Shown in pieces: positions 28,006-38,209 of a stretch of 64,000 nucleotides of DNA. The stretch covers positions 1,163,054 to 1,227,053 of the forward strand of contig NZ_WJIE01000001.1 of assembly GCF_009649845.1 (NCBI RefSeq), in the 5' to 3' direction. Each line of letters starts with the position of its first letter. Position 1 is the first letter of the stretch. The stretch comes from Polyangium spumosum. GTDB lineage: Bacteria; Myxococcota_A; Polyangia; Polyangiales; Polyangiaceae. Both the position numbers and the translations under genes were made by a program. The notes under the pieces were generated by a model. That model was not told the origin of the DNA, made no database searches, and saw nothing but the letters and a program-made list of their open reading frames with translations.

Positions 28006-29445
28006 ATGAAACAGGATGACGCCGAGCGACCCAACCTCGACCGGATCCCCACGGGGATCGCAGGTCTCGACACCGTCCTCGGCGGAGGTTTCCTGGCCGG
28101 CAGCGTCCACCTCGTCGTCGGCCCTCCTGGCAGCGGCAAGACGATCCTCGCCAACCAGATCACCTTCCGCCGCGCAGCGACGGGCCAGACGGCCGTGTAC
28201 GTAACGCTGCTCGCCGAGGCGCACGCCCGCATGCTCGCGCACCTCGGGGGCTTCGAGTTCTTCGACCCGAGCTTCGTGCCGCACCGGATCGTCTACATGA
28301 GCGGCTACGGCGTGCTCGAGCAGAGCGGGCTCGACGGCCTGCTCGAGCTGCTCGGCCGCACGATCCGCGAGCACGGCGCGATGTTCCTGGTGCTCGACGG
28401 GCTCGGCACGGCGGAGGAGTTCGCCCCGACGACGAGCGTGTTCAAGCGGTTCTTGCTGACGCTCTCGACCTCGGCGAGCTTGACCGGCTGCACGATGCTC
28501 CTGCTCGCCACGCGGAGCGCGTCGGACGCGCCTCGGCCCGAGCAGGCGACGGTGGACGGGCTCCTCACGCTCGACAAACGCCGCGTCGGCGCGCGCTCGG
28601 TGCGCGAGCTCGTGGTCGAGAAGATGCGGGCCACCAAGTACGCGCTCGGCGCGCACGCGATCGACATCGACGAGAAGGGCATCCACGTCTACCCGCGGCT
28701 CGAGGCGTGGCCCTTCCCGCAGCCGGCCCCGGCGGCCCCGAAGCGGCGGCTCGGCTTCGGCGTGCAGGGGCTCGACGCCATGCTCGGCGGCGGCGTGCTC
28801 GGAGGATCGTCCACGGTGATCCTGGGGGGCCCCGGGACGGGCAAGACGCTGCTCGGGATGAGCTTCCTCCTCGAGGGCGTGCGGCGAGGCGAGCGCGGGA
28901 TCTACCTCGGCTTCGGGGAGGGGCCCGAGCGTATCGTCCAGGCCGCAAGCGGCATCGGGCTCGACGCCCAGGGCGCGCTCGATCGCACGGAGCTGACGAT
29001 GCTATGGTATCCGCCTACCGAGGGTACGGCGGACGCGGTCGCGTGGCGCCTGCTCGAGGAGGTCAGCGAGGAGGGGCAGAAGCGCGTGTTCATCGACGAG
29101 CTCCGCGGCTTCCGCAACATGACGACGGACGTCGAGCGCCTCGATCGCTTCCACGCGGCGCTCTGGGCCGCGCTCGCGAGGCGCGGCGCGACGACGATCC
29201 TCACGGAGACCGTCTCCACGTGGGAGCACGCGAGGACCACGAGCGTGGTGTCGCAGCCCGCGTTCGTCGACAATGTGATCGTCCTCGAGGAAGAAGAGAG
29301 GGGTCGAAGGCTGCGCCGGTACGTCGCGACACGAAAGGTCGCGGGGGGCAAGCACGATCCCTCGCTGCGGAGGCTCCGCATCTCGAGCAAGGGCATCGAG
29401 GTGGAGCAGCCAGGCGTGCGCAGTCGCCTCCGGGGGAGCGCGTGA
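28006..29445 (+). CDS. KaiC-like double-domain ATPase
   Basis: 479 residues made of two RecA/KaiC-fold ATPase domains. The first Walker A is GPPGSGKT at 39-46, followed by a Walker B-like LVLDGLG at 128-134. The second is GGPGTGKT at 274-281, with FGEGPE carrying a KaiC-type catalytic Glu and VFIDELRGF as Walker B. Both domains start with the KaiC phrase G-x-x-G-L-D-x-x-L-G-G-G. No kaiA or kaiB is nearby. The GTGA overlap with the receiver gene makes a coupled pair. KaiC-like proteins outside cyanobacteria act in stress and signalling switches as well as clocks; the output here is unknown. Confidence 0.9.
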
Positions 29446-30390: not shown

Positions 30391-32502
30391 GTGCGTGATC
30401 GAGAAGCCAGCCCGACGAAGCTCGCCCTGCGCGGCTTTTTGCTGTTCGCGCTGACGGCCTCCGCCTGCATCGCCGGCGCGCCCGAGGGCATCCGCCGACA
30501 AACCGACGGCGACGACGGGGAAGAGCCGCTCATCAACTTCGACGGCGGCACCTTGCCGCCCATCGACGCCGCGCCCGACATCGCGGCCCTGGATCCCTAC
30601 GCCGTGGTCGGCGCCGATCCCACGCACGGACCTTTCACCGGCGGCCAGCGCGTGCTCATCCGCGGCAACGGCTTCGCCGCCGCGACGCGCGTCTGGTTCG
30701 GCGAGATCGAGGCCGACGCGTCGACGATGGTGCCGATCGATCCGACGCGCCTGCAGATCACCGCGCCGAAGGGCACGGCCGGCGCGGTCACGCTCACCGT
30801 GCAGAAGGGCGACGATGAATCCACGCGCCGCTCGCTCCCCGGCGGATACGCCTACGACGCGCTCTACGCGGCCCCCTCGAGCGGGCCCGTCGCCGGAGGC
30901 ACGGTCATCGAGATCATCGGCGACGGCACGAGCTGGACGTCCTCCGCGATCGCCAGGATCGGCGGCAAACCCTGCACGACGCAGACCATCAACGGGCCGA
31001 CCTCGATCACGTGCACGGTCCCCAAGGGCACGCCCGGCGCGAAGCCCGTCTCGGTCGACGCGGGCGACGGTCAGCCGATCGTCGTGCTCGACGCGTACAC
31101 CTACGAGGACAGCACGAACGGCTTCAAGGGAGGCCTCTCCGGCGCGCCGCTCGCAGGCAAGCTCAAGGTGCTCGTCTACAACAACTTCACCGGCGATCCG
31201 ATCGCCGGCGCGCACGTGATCGTGGGCAACGCTCTGCCGTCGGCGCTCGTGAAGCAGGTCGACGCGACGGGCGTGACGCTCTTCGACGATCCTTCGCTCG
31301 ACGGCCCGCGCACCGTGACCATCGCGGCCAAGTGCCATAGCCCGATCACCTTCGTCGACGTCCCCGTCGACACCGCCACCGTCTACCTCGACCCCGTCCT
31401 CAGCCCCGCGTGCGCGGCCGACGGCGATCCTCCGCCCGTCGGCGGCAAACCCGGCGCGGGCGGCGGCATCCGCGGCGAGCTCGTCTGGCAGGGCAACGTC
31501 GAGTTCAAGAAGTCCCCCTGGATCAACGTGCCCGCGCCGGCGCCGGGCGAACGGCAGGTCGCGTACGTCTTCCACGCGTCGCAGGATCCGACCGGTACCT
31601 TCCAGCTCCCGCACCCCTCGACCGCGATCCTGCCCGACACGCCCGGGGAGATCGGCTACCAGTTCCAGCTCGGCAGCAGCGCCGGCAACCGCGCCCTCTA
31701 CGCGCTCGCCGGCGTCGAGACCACCACGCCGCCGGTAAAGTTCACCGCGTACGCGATGGGCATGGTGCAAGGCGTGAGCGTGCTGCCGGGCCAGTTCACC
31801 GAGCAGGTCTACCTCGTGATGGATCGGACGCTCGATCAAGCCCTCACGATGGACGTCACGCCGCCCGCGCCGGGGCCCAAAGGGCCGGACCGCGTGCGCG
31901 CCACGGTCTCCGTCATGCTCGGCAACGACGGCTACGCGCTCCTGCCCGCCGGCGTGAAGACGCCGCTCTTGCCGCTCGCCGGGCCCATCCCGTTCGTTGG
32001 CCTGCCCGCGCTCGATGGCTCGCTGCTCGGCGCGACGTACGTCTCCACGGCCCGCGCGGTCACCGGTCCGCAGGCCTCGGCGCCGATGTCCGTCGTCGGC
32101 CGGCTGCTCTCCACGAGCACCGCCGAGGGCCTCGCCGTGGACGGCTTCGTCGGCGTACCGACGCTGACCACGCCGGCGAGCGGCGCGGCCTGGGACGGCC
32201 GTCACCTCGCCACCACGTTCGGCGCCGGCGGCTCGGCGATCGATCTTTCGGTCTACGACGTCACGAGCGGCGGCGGCCTCATCCGCTGGACCGTGGTCGT
32301 GCCCAAGGGCTCCCACGCCGTCGAGGTGCCCGATCTCTCGGTCTTCCCCTTCCCCGAAGGCGGGCTGCCGAGCGGACCCATCACGATCGGCGTGTACGGC
32401 GCGCGGGTGGACAAGTTCGATTACGGCGCGCTCCGCTACCGGGACATCCGGCCGAGCGGGATGAGCGCCTACGCCCTCGATTATTTCAACGCGTTCCTCT
32501 GA
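30391..32502 (+). CDS. IPT/TIG-domain surface lipoprotein
   Basis: 703 residues from GTG 30391. The N-terminus has a positively charged stretch, a hydrophobic core (LRGFLLFALTASACIAG) and a lipobox-like ASAC, so it is probably lipid-anchored. Two consecutive IPT/TIG immunoglobulin-like modules follow at about 70-150 and 155-240 (ADPTHGPFTGGQRVLIRGNG and SGPVAGGTVIEIIGDGTSW). Next come a carboxypeptidase-like segment near KLKVLVYNNFTGDPIAGAHV and a long beta-rich C-terminal half. There is no catalytic motif I can name. It is followed in 12 bases by the IgGFc-like gene and is probably co-transcribed with it. Confidence 0.8.
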   Translation: MRDREASPTKLALRGFLLFALTASACIAGAPEGIRRQTDGDDGEEPLINFDGGTLPPIDAAPDIAALDPYAVVGADPTHGPFTGGQRVLIRGNGFAAATRVWFGEIEADASTMVPIDPTRLQITAPKGTAGAVTLTVQKGDDESTRRSLPGGYAYDALYAAPSSGPVAGGTVIEIIGDGTSWTSSAIARIGGKPCTTQTINGPTSITCTVPKGTPGAKPVSVDAGDGQPIVVLDAYTYEDSTNGFKGGLSGAPLAGKLKVLVYNNFTGDPIAGAHVIVGNALPSALVKQVDATGVTLFDDPSLDGPRTVTIAAKCHSPITFVDVPVDTATVYLDPVLSPACAADGDPPPVGGKPGAGGGIRGELVWQGNVEFKKSPWINVPAPAPGERQVAYVFHASQDPTGTFQLPHPSTAILPDTPGEIGYQFQLGSSAGNRALYALAGVETTTPPVKFTAYAMGMVQGVSVLPGQFTEQVYLVMDRTLDQALTMDVTPPAPGPKGPDRVRATVSVMLGNDGYALLPAGVKTPLLPLAGPIPFVGLPALDGSLLGATYVSTARAVTGPQASAPMSVVGRLLSTSTAEGLAVDGFVGVPTLTTPASGAAWDGRHLATTFGAGGSAIDLSVYDVTSGGGLIRWTVVVPKGSHAVEVPDLSVFPFPEGGLPSGPITIGVYGARVDKFDYGALRYRDIRPSGMSAYALDYFNAFL

Positions 32503-32514
32503 ACGGAGACACGC

Positions 32515-34524
32515 ATGAACGAGCGAAGAAGGGGCCCGAAGCGCCTCGGCCGCGGCGCCCTCGTGTTCCTCGCGGCGGCCCTGCTCGCCAGTTGCTTCGA
32601 CAAATCGACCCGCTGGGAGCTCGTCGAGGTCGAGCCCACGCCTCCGCCGCCGCCCGTGTGCGAGGTCGGCCTCGAGCGATGCACGACCGCGCTCGAGCGC
32701 TGCACCGACACGGCCGACGGCCCCGCGTGGACCCTCGTCGAGGACTGCGCGGCCGAGGGCCTCGTCTGCGCGCCGACCTTGCTCCGCTGCACGCCGTGCG
32801 TCCCGAAGACCGGGAGCTGCAAGGGACAGGACGCCTATAGCTGCAACGAAGACGGCACCGTCGAGAACTTCGTCGCCACGTGCGACATGTCGAAGGGCAT
32901 CGCTTGCCGCCGCGGGAGCTGCGTGGACCTCTGCGGGCGCGCGATCGTCGAGAAGAGCAACGTCGGCTGCGAATACTGGGCCGTCGACCTCGACAACGCG
33001 AGGATCGACGCGACGAGCAACGCGGCCGCGCAGCAGTTCGCCGTCGTCGTTTCGAACCCGCACCCGGACGTCCCCGTCTCCGTGCGAATCGCGCAGGACG
33101 ACGGCCTGCCGGGCTCCGCGCCTGCGCCGTACGACATCGCGACCGCGGTCATCGCGCCGTTGAACCTCCAGGTGTTCAAGCTCGGCCCGCGTGAGGTCGA
33201 CGGCAGCCCCGAGGGCGAATACGACACCGGCTCGCACACGGCGCTCACGCGGCACGCGTACCGCATCCGCTCGGATTTCCCGGTCGTCGCGTATCAGTTC
33301 AACCCGCTCGAGAACGTGAACGTCTTCTCGAACGACGCGTCGCTGCTCAAGCCGACCGAGGCGCTCTCGTTCGGCGTCGAGGACAGCCTCATCACGTCGT
33401 ACGTCGTGGTCGGCTGGCCGCAGACGATCGCCACGACCGACGATCCGGACACGAACTTCAACCCGAATGACCCGATCCACCTCCGCTCGTTCCTCACGGT
33501 CGTGGGCACGCAGCCGGAGACCACCGTTCGCGTCAAGACGAAGGCGAAGGTCGTGGGGGGCGGGCCCGTGGCCGAGACGCCCGCGAACGGCGTCATCGAG
33601 GCGCGCCTCGACGCCTTCGACGTGCTGAACCTGGAGACGGGCGATTTCAACGCCGACTTCACGGGCACCACCATCGAGTCGAACGGGCCCATCGCGGTCT
33701 TCACGGGCGGCGAGGCCTCGGACGCGCCCCATTTCCCGACCCTCGCGTATCGCCGCTGCTGCGCCGATCACCTGGAGGACCAGCTCGATCCGGTCCGCAC
33801 GGCGGGCAAATCGTTCGCCGTCGCCCACACGCCGAGCCGGACGCGGATGGTCAGGCAGGCGGGCGCGCTCATCGAGGAGGTCCCCGAGCCCGATTATGTG
33901 CGGTTCGTCGCGGCCTCGAAGGCCGGCGCGACGATCACCACGACGCTGCCGCCGCCCTACGACGAGATCCACCTCGGGTGGCTCGGCGACTCGGCCGAGG
34001 TCACGGCGTACCGCGATTTCATGGCCGAGAGCACGGAGCCCATCATCGTGGCCCAGGTCATGGGCAGCCAGGACGCGGCCGGCGTGCGGCGCGGCCTGCC
34101 GGGCGGGGATCCGAGCCTGCTCATCGTCCCGCCGATCGAGCAGGCCCGGCCCGATTACGTCTTCCTCACGCCCGACAAATACGCATTCGATTACGCCTCG
34201 ATCGTCGCGCCCGCGGGCCAGGGTGTGCTGCTCGACGAGCAGCTCCTCGGCCCCGATCTCTGCGAGGTCACCGCGGCCGACGGCCTCACGGACGAGGAGC
34301 GCGGGGGCCCGCCGGCGTGGATCGCGTATCGATGCCAGCTCAGCTTCCCGTTCATCGATTCGCTCGGGAATTTCGTGTACGTCTTTCCGGGCAAACAGAA
34401 TGACGGCGTCCACCGGGTCGTCGCCGGCGTGCCGGTCGTCGTGACGGTGGGCGGGTTCGATTCGTACGTGAGTTATTCGTACGCGGCGGGCACGGAGCTG
34501 CGGGCGATCGCGCTGCCGGAGTGA
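32515..34524 (+). CDS. IgGFc-binding-like N-terminal domain lipoprotein (copy 1)
   Basis: 669 residues from ATG 32515, with GGAG 6 bases upstream. The signal peptide ends in lipobox LLASC. A Cys-rich spacer (residues about 50-140, many C-x3-7-C pairs) precedes the large domain, which starts GCEYWAVDLDN and contains VVAYQFNPLENVNVFSND. It ends with VSYSYAAGTELRAI. This is the FcgBP N-terminal-like family frequent in myxobacterial genomes, of unknown function; the name reflects similarity to a mucus protein, not shown antibody binding. Its paralogue is at 45228-47033. It converges with the EutBC gene, with 4 bases between. Confidence 0.82.
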   Translation: MNERRRGPKRLGRGALVFLAAALLASCFDKSTRWELVEVEPTPPPPPVCEVGLERCTTALERCTDTADGPAWTLVEDCAAEGLVCAPTLLRCTPCVPKTGSCKGQDAYSCNEDGTVENFVATCDMSKGIACRRGSCVDLCGRAIVEKSNVGCEYWAVDLDNARIDATSNAAAQQFAVVVSNPHPDVPVSVRIAQDDGLPGSAPAPYDIATAVIAPLNLQVFKLGPREVDGSPEGEYDTGSHTALTRHAYRIRSDFPVVAYQFNPLENVNVFSNDASLLKPTEALSFGVEDSLITSYVVVGWPQTIATTDDPDTNFNPNDPIHLRSFLTVVGTQPETTVRVKTKAKVVGGGPVAETPANGVIEARLDAFDVLNLETGDFNADFTGTTIESNGPIAVFTGGEASDAPHFPTLAYRRCCADHLEDQLDPVRTAGKSFAVAHTPSRTRMVRQAGALIEEVPEPDYVRFVAASKAGATITTTLPPPYDEIHLGWLGDSAEVTAYRDFMAESTEPIIVAQVMGSQDAAGVRRGLPGGDPSLLIVPPIEQARPDYVFLTPDKYAFDYASIVAPAGQGVLLDEQLLGPDLCEVTAADGLTDEERGGPPAWIAYRCQLSFPFIDSLGNFVYVFPGKQNDGVHRVVAGVPVVVTVGGFDSYVSYSYAAGTELRAIALPE

Positions 34525-34528
34525 GCGC

Positions 34529-36973
34529 TCAGGGGAGCGGCTTCGCCTTGAGGTTGTCGAGCTGCGTCACGACCTGATTCGCGGACGCGCTCGCCATCCC
34601 GAGGACGTACGTCGTGTCGGCGAGGCCGGCGACGACGCTCGTCACGTCGTGATCGACCTTGCCCGCCTGGGCCCAGTACGCGACCGTCGGTATCGTCATG
34701 TACACCGAGAACGCGCGGTGCTCGCTGCCGGGCCGCTCGCCGATGATGTGCACGATGGCGCGCCGGCTCTGCGCGTCGGCGAGCTTTCCGTAAAGGACCT
34801 CGCCGACGTGATACCCCGCGCGCACGCGGCCCGAGGTGCACACGATGTTCTCGGGCGCGACCTTGTAGCCCGCATTCTCGAGCGCCGTGCGGAGCGCCGG
34901 GAGGAACACGTCCACGTGCCCCGCATCCGAGATCGAATAGGCGTTCAGGCCCTCCGAGATCATGATCTGCACGTCATACTGGCCCGCGTGCGCGTCCCGG
35001 AGCTTCTCGAGCTCGGGGATCGCGTCGGCCTTGATCTGCTCGCCCGTCGGCGGGTGCAGGATGTAATCGTCGCGGTCCTTCGATCCCGTCCAGACCTTCA
35101 CCGCGCTCGGGATCGTCGCGACGAACGCCGGATCGAGCTCGGCGATGATGCTCTTCTTGCCGTCGTCGACGAGGTCGCGGATGTACTGGTCGAGGTCGGG
35201 GTTCAGGTCCCACGGCTTCGCCCCGCGGCCCTCGGCGATGAACACGCCGCGCTTCTTCACGGCGTCGAGCTCGGTCTGCGTCTCCGACGCCGCCATGATC
35301 TGCTCGATCGTGCGCGGATCCGCCGGGTTCTTCGCCTTCATGTACTTGGCGTAGACGTACTTCACGTTGCCGAAGTACTGCGTGGGCTGCCCCTGCGCGT
35401 CGATGACGCCGAGCTCCTGGAAAAACGCCCACATCTTGTCCTCGACCTTGTAGCCGAACTTGTCGCGGATCCGGACGTGGTCCTGGAACGCGGTCGTCAG
35501 GTACGACAGCATCGGGTCGTTCTTCGTGGGCAGGGCCATGAGGTAAGCCGGGTTGGCCGGCATGATCTGGTCGATGCACCAGTCGAGATCGTCGAGGCCG
35601 ACCGACATGTGCAACGTCGAGCAGATATCGAGGCCGATCGGCAGGCCGTGCAGCTTGCCCATCACGATGTCCTCCAGGCAGCAGCGGACGAGCTGCTCCT
35701 TCGTGCGGAAGACCTCGGGGCCGATGAAGCCCGCCACGTCGTTCAGGTGCACCCACGGCGCCTCGGTGTTGCCCGCGGCCTTCTGCGCCTCGGCGACCTT
35801 GTGCGTGAGGGCCCGCGCGAAGCCGTACTTGCGCGCCTCGTGCACGACCATGTCGAAGCCCGCGCCGTGGCCGTTCGTCGCGTCCGCGCCCTGCCCCGTC
35901 TCGAAATAGAGGCCATACTTGCCGGGCCGCGCGGCCGCGTGGTTCAGCATCTTCTCCACCGTGACGTCGAACGTCGCGTTCGCGTCCACGGTGCTGCCGA
36001 GGCTCTGGAACCAGAGCGCCGTCGAGCCCGGGAACTGCTTCTCGACCTCGGCCTGCACGTCGATGTGCGCGAGGCAGCAGTGCGGCAGCGTGTCCTCGAG
36101 CTTGAACGTCACGAGGATGTCCTTCAGCACCTCCTCGATCTTGTGTACGCTCGCGACCTCGCTCGAGACCGGGTTGTTGCCGAGCACGACGTCGCCGACC
36201 GCGAAGGCGAAGCCGTTCATGACCTGCCAGAGGATGTCGGTCGGGTCGTCCGTGGGCGAGTTCGGCTGGATACGCGCGCCCATGTAGCCCTTCGCGCCGA
36301 TGTTCGAGCCCGGCAGGGGGTTGAACACGGTCTGTCCCACCTTCGTGAGCTCGTCGTTGTTCATGAGCTTCACGACCATGCCGATGATGTCGCTCGGGAG
36401 GCCGACCATGACGGCCTTGATCTCGGCCTCGGTCTTTTCGAGCAAGAATGCCTTGAGCTCCGACATCTTCCAGCCGCGCACGGACTCGAGCGCGGCCGCG
36501 TCCGTCGTCTTCATGACGAGGTCGTAGACGGCGTCCTCGAGCATCGGGCGCTCCGCGAGATCGCCGATCTTCGTGTTGCCGAGCAGCGTGCGCGCGTTCT
36601 GCCGCGTCGTTTCGTCCTTGGCCGCGACGCCGAGGGCCTCGTCGCCCTCCTTGTATTCGTTCGCGAAGCCGATCACGGCCTTGTAGAACTCGTGGTCGTA
36701 CTGGCCCTTGACGCGGGTGACGTAGGTGATGACGTCCTCCCCCTCGCAAATGTCGTCGATCCCGACGTTGCAAGACCGCGGCGTCGGCGGCTGCTCCGGC
36801 AGATCCGGCGTGCACCCGACCGCCGTGAGCGCCCCGATGCCGCCGAGGAGCCCCATCATGAAGGAGCGGCGGCGCAGCGCGAGCGAGGCCGGGCTCGCCG
36901 CTGCGGACAGCGGCGCCGCCGCGGGAATCTGCCGAGGTCTACGCGGACGATCCAGCTCGTTTGCCTTCTTCAT
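34529..36973 (-). CDS. Single-chain EutB-EutC ethanolamine ammonia-lyase with Tat/lipoprotein signal
   Basis: Adenosylcobalamin enzyme type that converts ethanolamine to acetaldehyde and ammonia. 814 residues from ATG 36973 (GGGAG 7 bases upstream). Residues 1-54 form an export signal: a long n-region, twin-arginine motif RRRSFMMG (34-41), a hydrophobic core, and lipobox AVGC with Cys54. A EutB-like region spans about 70-560. The E. coli active-site residues Arg160, Gln162, Asn193, Glu287 and Asp362 align with Arg234 and Gln236 (ARIQPN), Asn267 (GNNPV), Glu358 (YFETGQG) and Asp449 (IGLDIC). A EutC-like region follows at about 610-800 (DVQIMISEGLNAYSI, SGRVRAGYHVGEVL, IGERPGSEHRAFSVYM). No eutA reactivase, shell or aldehyde dehydrogenase gene is in the window. 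Fusion and export are both unusual for this family. Confidence 0.88.
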   Translation of the reverse strand: MKKANELDRPRRPRQIPAAAPLSAAASPASLALRRRSFMMGLLGGIGALTAVGCTPDLPEQPPTPRSCNVGIDDICEGEDVITYVTRVKGQYDHEFYKAVIGFANEYKEGDEALGVAAKDETTRQNARTLLGNTKIGDLAERPMLEDAVYDLVMKTTDAAALESVRGWKMSELKAFLLEKTEAEIKAVMVGLPSDIIGMVVKLMNNDELTKVGQTVFNPLPGSNIGAKGYMGARIQPNSPTDDPTDILWQVMNGFAFAVGDVVLGNNPVSSEVASVHKIEEVLKDILVTFKLEDTLPHCCLAHIDVQAEVEKQFPGSTALWFQSLGSTVDANATFDVTVEKMLNHAAARPGKYGLYFETGQGADATNGHGAGFDMVVHEARKYGFARALTHKVAEAQKAAGNTEAPWVHLNDVAGFIGPEVFRTKEQLVRCCLEDIVMGKLHGLPIGLDICSTLHMSVGLDDLDWCIDQIMPANPAYLMALPTKNDPMLSYLTTAFQDHVRIRDKFGYKVEDKMWAFFQELGVIDAQGQPTQYFGNVKYVYAKYMKAKNPADPRTIEQIMAASETQTELDAVKKRGVFIAEGRGAKPWDLNPDLDQYIRDLVDDGKKSIIAELDPAFVATIPSAVKVWTGSKDRDDYILHPPTGEQIKADAIPELEKLRDAHAGQYDVQIMISEGLNAYSISDAGHVDVFLPALRTALENAGYKVAPENIVCTSGRVRAGYHVGEVLYGKLADAQSRRAIVHIIGERPGSEHRAFSVYMTIPTVAYWAQAGKVDHDVTSVVAGLADTTYVLGMASASANQVVTQLDNLKAKPLP

Positions 36974-37165
36974 GCTCGTGCTCCCAAGCAACCATCCAAG
37001 GAGTGCATCTCCCGCATCACGGCGAGGCGCTGCACGCCGCCCACCGCCCACGGAGGGAGCCCTTCGAATAAAGGCGCCCCGGATCGATTGTAGGCCGAAG
37101 GAACTCGCTCTGGCAACGCACTCGTCGCGAGATCGGGTAGGGTGATCCCTCAACCGAGGAGAGAC

Positions 37166-38209
37166 ATGAACGGCCGTAAGTGGACCTTCCCATTCGCGGG
37201 GCTCGTCGCGCTCGTGGGCGGCTGCCAGATCATTGGCAGCCTCGAGCCCGAGCTCGTCCTTTCGTCCGGGGACGAAGTCTGCGGCGACGGGCTCGACGAC
37301 GACGAAGACGGCCTCGCCGATTGCGCCGACCCCGATTGCGCCACGAGCACCTGCGTCTCGGGCGCACCTCCCGGCTGGGAAGGGCCCTTCTGGGTGTGGC
37401 GCTCTGCCTGGGACGGCGCGTCGGGGCCTTCATGCCCCCTCGGCCTCGAGGCCTCCGCCCATTACATGACCCCCACGCCGGCGGCGTGTACGCCGTGCGC
37501 GTGCGGCGGCGTCGAGGGCGGCGCCTGCGGCACGCCGAGGCTCCGTTGCTGGGCGTCCAAGAGCTGCTCCGGCGAAGCCGTCAACGCGACGATCGACGAC
37601 GTGGGGCAATGCGGCAATCCCTTCGGCTTCCTGGGGAGCCCGTCGACCGCGAGCTGCCGGATCATCGCGCCGGGCAACATGCAATCGAACGGCACGTGCG
37701 CGCCGCCGAGCGGCGGGGGGCTCGCGGACGCGAAGCCGTTCCAGGAGATGCTCTCGGCCTGCGAGCTGCGCGAGGCCGGGTGCGAGGAGGGCTCGTCCTG
37801 CGCGCCGCCGCTCGAAGACGGAGCGAAGCTCTGCATCCGGAAGAGCGGCGACGACGCCTGCCCGAGCGGATGGACCGCCGATACGATGGACGCGTATTCG
37901 AGCGGGCAGGACGCGCGGGCCTGCGAGGCTTGCACCTGCCAGCTCCAGGGCGCCGCTTGCGAGGGTGGCGTCTACCGGGCCTTCGATCTGCAGGGCTGCA
38001 AGGAGGACGCGGAGCCCGGGTCGGTCGTGGACCCGCCGATCGACATCACGGGGGACGCCTGCTTCGACCTCACGATGCTCTCCGATCTGAACACCTTTTC
38101 GGTGCGCGCCATTTCGACCAGCGTCGTCACGGGCGCCTGCCAGGCGAGCGGCGGCGCGCCGAGCGGCTCGGTCCTGCTCGAGGGACCCGTCAAATACTGC
38201 TGTCGTTGA
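37166..38209 (+). CDS. Cys-rich lipoprotein of unknown function
   Basis: 347 residues from ATG 37166 (GAGGAG 5 bases upstream). The signal peptide ends GLVALVGGC with a lipobox Cys, giving a lipoprotein. An Asp-rich stretch (CGDGLDDDEDGLADCADPDC) is a MopE/Slr-type calcium-binding or MYXO-CTERM-like Cys/Asp repeat seen in myxobacterial surface proteins. The rest has more than 20 Cys residues in pairs, suggesting a disulfide-bonded extracellular fold. It is divergent from the EutBC gene across 192 bases, so the two may share control. Confidence 0.75.
   Translation: MNGRKWTFPFAGLVALVGGCQIIGSLEPELVLSSGDEVCGDGLDDDEDGLADCADPDCATSTCVSGAPPGWEGPFWVWRSAWDGASGPSCPLGLEASAHYMTPTPAACTPCACGGVEGGACGTPRLRCWASKSCSGEAVNATIDDVGQCGNPFGFLGSPSTASCRIIAPGNMQSNGTCAPPSGGGLADAKPFQEMLSACELREAGCEEGSSCAPPLEDGAKLCIRKSGDDACPSGWTADTMDAYSSGQDARACEACTCQLQGAACEGGVYRAFDLQGCKEDAEPGSVVDPPIDITGDACFDLTMLSDLNTFSVRAISTSVVTGACQASGGAPSGSVLLEGPVKYCCR

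Follow-up and report, generated by a model that had tools for sequence, protein, structure and literature searches.

The window analysed here, 64,000 nucleotides of Polyangium spumosum DNA, carries on its minus strand an open reading frame of 814 residues (34529..36973; ATG at 36973, stop codon ending at 34529), in which an earlier reading made from the letters alone (the sequence-only reading) had recognized the EutB and EutC parts of ethanolamine ammonia-lyase (EAL) joined in one chain. The Pfam matches bear this out: a EutB domain spans residues 95-532 (35378..36691; E 1.2e-134, score 449.9 against a cut-off of 25) and a EutC domain residues 607-801 (34571..35155; E 2.2e-24, score 86.5 against a cut-off of 25.8), while residues 533-606 (35156..35377) form a linker together with a divergent start of EutC. 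The protein passes the NCBIfam EutB model (588.7; cut-off 554) and misses the cut-off of the NCBIfam EutC equivalog (67.4; cut-off 230). By these scores its EutC part is a divergent EutC, and we therefore speak of an EAL-type enzyme and not of a proven EAL equivalog. The nearest solved structures are EAL heavy chains (2qez, E 1e-61; 3abo, E 7.7e-54). An AlphaFold2 model built from five close sequences was unusable (mean pLDDT 37.9, pTM 0.27), which we count against the explanation favored below. The plus-strand frame over 34529-36973 is also open; we read it as the shadow of a high-GC gene.

Upstream of the EutB domain lies an N-terminal signal region (residues 1-54; 36812..36973, minus strand). 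It contains the twin-arginine motif RRRSFMM (residues 34-40; 36854..36874), with R34-R35-R36-S-F exactly where the sequence-only reading had placed it, and ends in the lipobox A51-V-G-C54 (36812..36823), likewise present as claimed and judged by a PROSITE-type rule. The earlier reading had itself raised the possibility that a reannotated start might remove the signal. A possible ribosome-binding site, GGGAG, is positioned 7 nt 5' of the ATG (36981..36985, minus strand), and the N-terminus is kept from residue 1 onwards (MKK..NEL.RPRRPRQ) in 6/6 sequences of the genus Polyangium; the signal is therefore no artefact of a wrong start.

The eutBC gene stands alone in the window. On the opposite (plus) strand, genes for a TIG-domain protein (30391-32502; Pfam) and an IgGFc-binding-family protein (32515-34524; Pfam) form a tandem pair, and we found counterparts at all five of the other Polyangium-genus loci compared; an open reading frame lacking a Pfam match is found at 37169-38209 (plus strand), and a protein with two KaiC-type ATPase stretches is encoded at 28006-29445 (plus strand). 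The window yielded 0 Rfam riboswitch matches at gathering score. That no reactivase is encoded nearby, as had been noticed before, holds: a genome-wide search for the reactivase EutA matched contigs C4 and C9, not contig C1, to which the window belongs. For the aldehyde dehydrogenase, likewise said to be missing nearby, Pfam found none among seven neighbouring open reading frames.

A signal-bearing EutBC subfamily in two phyla

The finding reaches further than the sequence-only reading had it. The signal-bearing form was found in 6/6 genomes of the genus Polyangium examined, the five other proteins being 83-85% identical to that of the window. We searched Myxococcota genomes, the phylum of Polyangium, and a plasmid collection. 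Seven signal-bearing sequences, used together as the query, gave full-length matches in 7/183 genomes of the order and in 9/377 genomes drawn from the phylum (1085-1808 bits; the next match scored 255 bits). Beyond Polyangium, the carriers represent four Myxococcota genera (G048; G474; G453 and G406; G418), and fragments were present in two further genomes of the 377, an N-terminus in G447 and only a C-terminal piece in G225 (L104). Among the 72,556 records of the plasmid collection, 148 gave a match to the protein, and in 30 of these a single place accounted for 80% coverage or more; the 30 include ordinary split eutB-eutC pairs (e.g., of Clostridioides) and a signal-less Methylocystis fusion. 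The best 20 rows are megaplasmids of Sinorhizobium/Ensifer, which include root-nodule symbionts (52.8-54.9% identity), among them pSymA of S. meliloti. Rows at about 27-33% identity, within the best 60 of the 148, were set aside as ordinary or signal-less by identity and annotation, the Methylocystis sequence being examined individually. The role in predation that the sequence-only reading had envisaged finds no specific support, since these Sinorhizobium megaplasmids also carry the gene.

A quickly built EutB tree with 68 rows (14 signal-bearing, seven signal-less fused, and 47 others including E. coli; the Methylocystis fusion L114 was left out) unites the 14 signal-bearing sequences in one branch (SH-aLRT 100) on a long stem of 2.51 changes per column. 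Judged by these sequences, the signal-bearing EutBC proteins are a distinct and sharply separated subfamily. A contig-edge fragment from genome G445 (L103:1-972) was rejected as a member; there the C-terminus of EutB runs straight into a EutC with the ordinary GRAG motif, and it represents either a third type of EutB-EutC fusion or a sequencing error.

We assigned a Tat signal where an N-terminus combined a twin arginine with a hydrophobic stretch. A scan of 69 EutB open reading frames, from which segments below 300 amino acids, matches with E >1e-20, duplicates and rows matching only late in the model had been removed beforehand, found this combination in 14/14 members of the subfamily and in 1/54 other frames; a cut copy of the window's own gene (L091), also among the 69, was not counted. 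The single outside match (L020) is false, since it is located 5' of the likely ATG, and the 14/14 against 1/54 rules out a twin arginine arising by chance. Three additional N-termini (L102, L112, L113) carry the signal as well, so that the total is 17/17. The frame of L113 stops at 697 residues and its match falls into two pieces, probably because of a frameshift. In an alignment of 11 sequences, R35 and R36 are invariant (11/11 rows), and no other residue in the signal region is.

The lipobox follows a different pattern. The rule fits 7/11 Myxococcota sequences, including 6/6 from Polyangium and hence the protein of the window; in four of the five Myxococcota sequences outside Polyangium the Cys is present and the sequence departs from the rule. 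By the same test, the Cys is absent from 3/3 Sinorhizobium sequences, and no Cys occurs in the N-terminal stretches read from L102, L112 and L113. With the signal kept in 17/17 sequences and the lipobox variable, Tat targeting is the predicted conserved trait and lipid anchoring would be specific to lineages. The twin arginine stays invariant in both phyla as the remaining signal diverges, which upholds the earlier proposal that a fused enzyme of the EAL type is addressed to Tat; the proposed lipid anchor is retained for Polyangium and dropped for Sinorhizobium.

Could the protein be a cytoplasmic enzyme whose N-terminus merely resembles a Tat signal? A TatC gene was found in the P. spumosum genome, yet its presence is not specific, and the hydrophobic stretch is low in L008 (KD 0.61) and modest in L093-L095 and L066 (0.84-1.04), all of which would be compatible with a cytoplasmic location. 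However, the twin arginine occurs in all 17 N-termini read from the subfamily, in two phyla and with or without a lipobox, and the signal is missing from the other EutB proteins save for the one false match in 54; we consider a cytoplasmic location very improbable.

Polyangium genomes share the genes that flank the signal-bearing eutBC. G453 and G406 likewise have flanking genes in common, as do the fragments of G418 and G225, and the S. meliloti and S. terangae flanks agree in part. No linked neighbour was found across genera in flanks of unequal length, several of them on short contigs; the sole cross-genus similarity (G453 versus Polyangium) is generic (38-39% over 103-109 residues) and distant, and was not counted as linkage. 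In G453, a gene for a LysR-type regulator is positioned directly upstream of eutBC on the same strand (L097:7572-8525, plus strand), with a counterpart in G406; this regulator is a lead to an inducer. On S. meliloti pSymA, genes for a glycosyl transferase and a glucoamylase-family protein precede eutBC (L093:2588-7824, plus strand), and the S. terangae locus contains a 62% counterpart of the glycosyl transferase.

Catalytic residues and cofactor supply

As the sequence-only reading had stated, R234, Q236, N267, E358 and D449 of the P. spumosum protein align with R160, Q162, N193, E287 and D362 of E. coli EutB. We take R160, Q162, N193 and D362 to be substrate/catalytic positions; for E287, such a role is described in PMC4413051. 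The equivalents of all five are kept in 14/14 signal-bearing sequences and belong to a set of 74 near-invariant EutB positions conserved throughout these 14. A further 57 EutB positions are near-invariant in the 47 other EutB proteins, and none of the 14 carries the ordinary residue at any of them (four are gaps).

A similar mixture is seen in EutC, for which duplicate loci were left out of the counts. R206, the stretch G227-G231 (GERPG, including E228, R229 and P230) and Y241 are kept in 14/14 sequences, and R206 and E228 presumably contact cobalamin. In the same 14 sequences, D211 is replaced by Tyr and R141 by Glu, and the T74/G81/G84/R86 motif, present in 37-39/39 other EutC proteins, finds no aligned counterpart, to which an alignment limit may contribute because the aligned pieces began late. 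A divergent R-G-V...G-x-G stretch lies about where this motif would be.

We read these proteins as working adenosylcobalamin (AdoCbl) lyases with an uncertain substrate range: the 57 changed EutB positions and the unrecognisable N-terminal motif of EutC leave the fit to substrate and cofactor uncertain. Both the 57 changed positions and the long stem of the branch are what one would expect if the exported enzyme were catalytic but used neither ethanolamine nor a close analogue of it as substrate. The retention of the five substrate/catalytic positions, amid 74 near-invariant ones, speaks against such a change, and we regard this alternative as unlikely.

A second alternative, already entertained in the sequence-only reading as a non-catalytic ethanolamine sensor, is that the exported protein merely binds a cobamide or ethanolamine as a scavenger or sensor. 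A partly divergent EutC and a lack of metabolic genes linked across genera would accord with it, but the catalytic residues, the E287 equivalent included, are kept in 14/14 sequences, an invariance that disfavors a dead sensor. Moreover, mean dN, estimated by NG86 on high-GC genes and used solely as a contrast between parts of the protein, is smaller for EutB (0.044) than for the spacer (0.318), with values of 0.121 for the signal, 0.104 for the linker and 0.082 for EutC. A non-catalytic binder thus appears quite improbable to us, and a catalytic EAL-type protein remains the favored reading.

How such an enzyme could be kept active is a separate matter. ATP-driven reactivation is not to be expected outside the cytoplasm, and we count this against an exported enzyme. 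EutA adjoins, by adjacent coordinates in 6/6 Polyangium-genus genomes, not the signal-bearing gene but a second fused EutBC that had gone unmentioned in the sequence-only reading; in P. spumosum, this signal-less fusion is located on contig C4 (L002:1384-3588). It sits on a tree branch separate from that of the signal-bearing form, and the same type of fusion without a signal exists in Methylocystis (L114:1396-3591). Both the Polyangium and the Methylocystis protein unite EutB and EutC in one chain, as the signal-bearing form does, and differ from it by the missing signal and by an Ala at the position of Asp362. We take Asp362 to be substrate-binding; the signal-less fusion perhaps acts, therefore, on another substrate.

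Outside Polyangium, genome G048 (99% complete, 780 contigs) has the signal-bearing form as its sole EutB, and a search of this genome gave no EutA above the cut-off, the best hit being a partial match of 24.4 bits. The same search found no EutA match in G474, G418 and G225. In G406, G453 and G447, partial matches of 28-35 bits just exceeded the cut-off and covered 45-50 of 475 positions; we read these as generic ATPase-fold matches and not as true EutA. A second, ordinary EutB is encoded in each of G474, G453 and G406. For the cofactor itself, a member of the cobalamin adenosyltransferase family (PF01923) is present in the P. spumosum genome and in 6/7 non-Polyangium genomes tested, the exception being G418 (77% complete). 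The missing reactivase need not be fatal, because the EAL of Acinetobacter baumannii is reported to be active without EutA and without a microcompartment (PMC9426561).

Proposed export and comparison with known enzymes

The fusion, the signal, the conserved catalytic positions and the distinct subfamily are features of the sequences themselves, and from them we infer real export and loading with AdoCbl beforehand. The single-chain EAL-type enzyme would fold in the cytoplasm around its cobamide, cross the inner membrane in the folded state by Tat, and act outside the cytoplasm, where it would be lipid-anchored in Polyangium and a soluble periplasmic protein in Sinorhizobium. There its substrate, ethanolamine or a closely similar amino alcohol, would be split to yield ammonia and an aldehyde; since the aldehyde could diffuse into the cell, the charged amino alcohol would need no import. 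We consider it probable that the protein is such a Tat-exported single-chain EAL-type enzyme, cofactor-loaded, exported folded, and catalytic outside the cytoplasm.

We know of no enzyme of the B12 ethanolamine-lyase kind outside the cytoplasm. A literature search, weak in that most subscription papers lay outside its scope, linked ethanolamine ammonia-lyase to no twin-arginine or Tat signal, and a second one of the same weakness linked ethanolamine and EutB to no lipoprotein signal. We lean, with some reserve, toward the view that these cofactor-loaded, reactivase-free single-chain EALs of Myxococcota and Sinorhizobium megaplasmids, exported folded by Tat, could be the first family of AdoCbl radical enzymes outside the cytoplasm. 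If so, B12 radical chemistry would not be confined to the cytoplasm, a costly, light-sensitive and self-inactivating cofactor would be spent beyond the reach of an ATP-driven reactivase, and phospholipid ethanolamine could be used without a transporter.

Among known enzymes, the signal-bearing proteins resemble E. coli EAL EutB/EutC (PDB 3abo) and the 2qez heavy chain in their domains, catalytic positions, EutC Arg206 and GERPG. Unlike E. coli EAL, they form one chain, possess a signal peptide, stand alone, and are changed at 57 EutB positions and in parts of EutC. Reductive dehalogenases are corrinoid enzymes exported by Tat; they combine the corrinoid with iron-sulfur and perform no AdoCbl radical chemistry. 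We liken the signal-bearing EutBC to them as a putative Tat-exported corrinoid enzyme and claim no sequence relation. The A. baumannii EAL, free of EutA and of microcompartments, was reportedly seen at the cell membrane, and consists of two subunits of 50.6 and 30.1 kDa, unlike the single-chain form; the main text of that paper has 0 matches to the word periplasm (PMC9426561).

The presence of the gene in Sinorhizobium makes the question of export directly testable. Three S. meliloti records, among the matches listed, annotate it simply as EutB, and the signal may therefore have been overlooked in this species.
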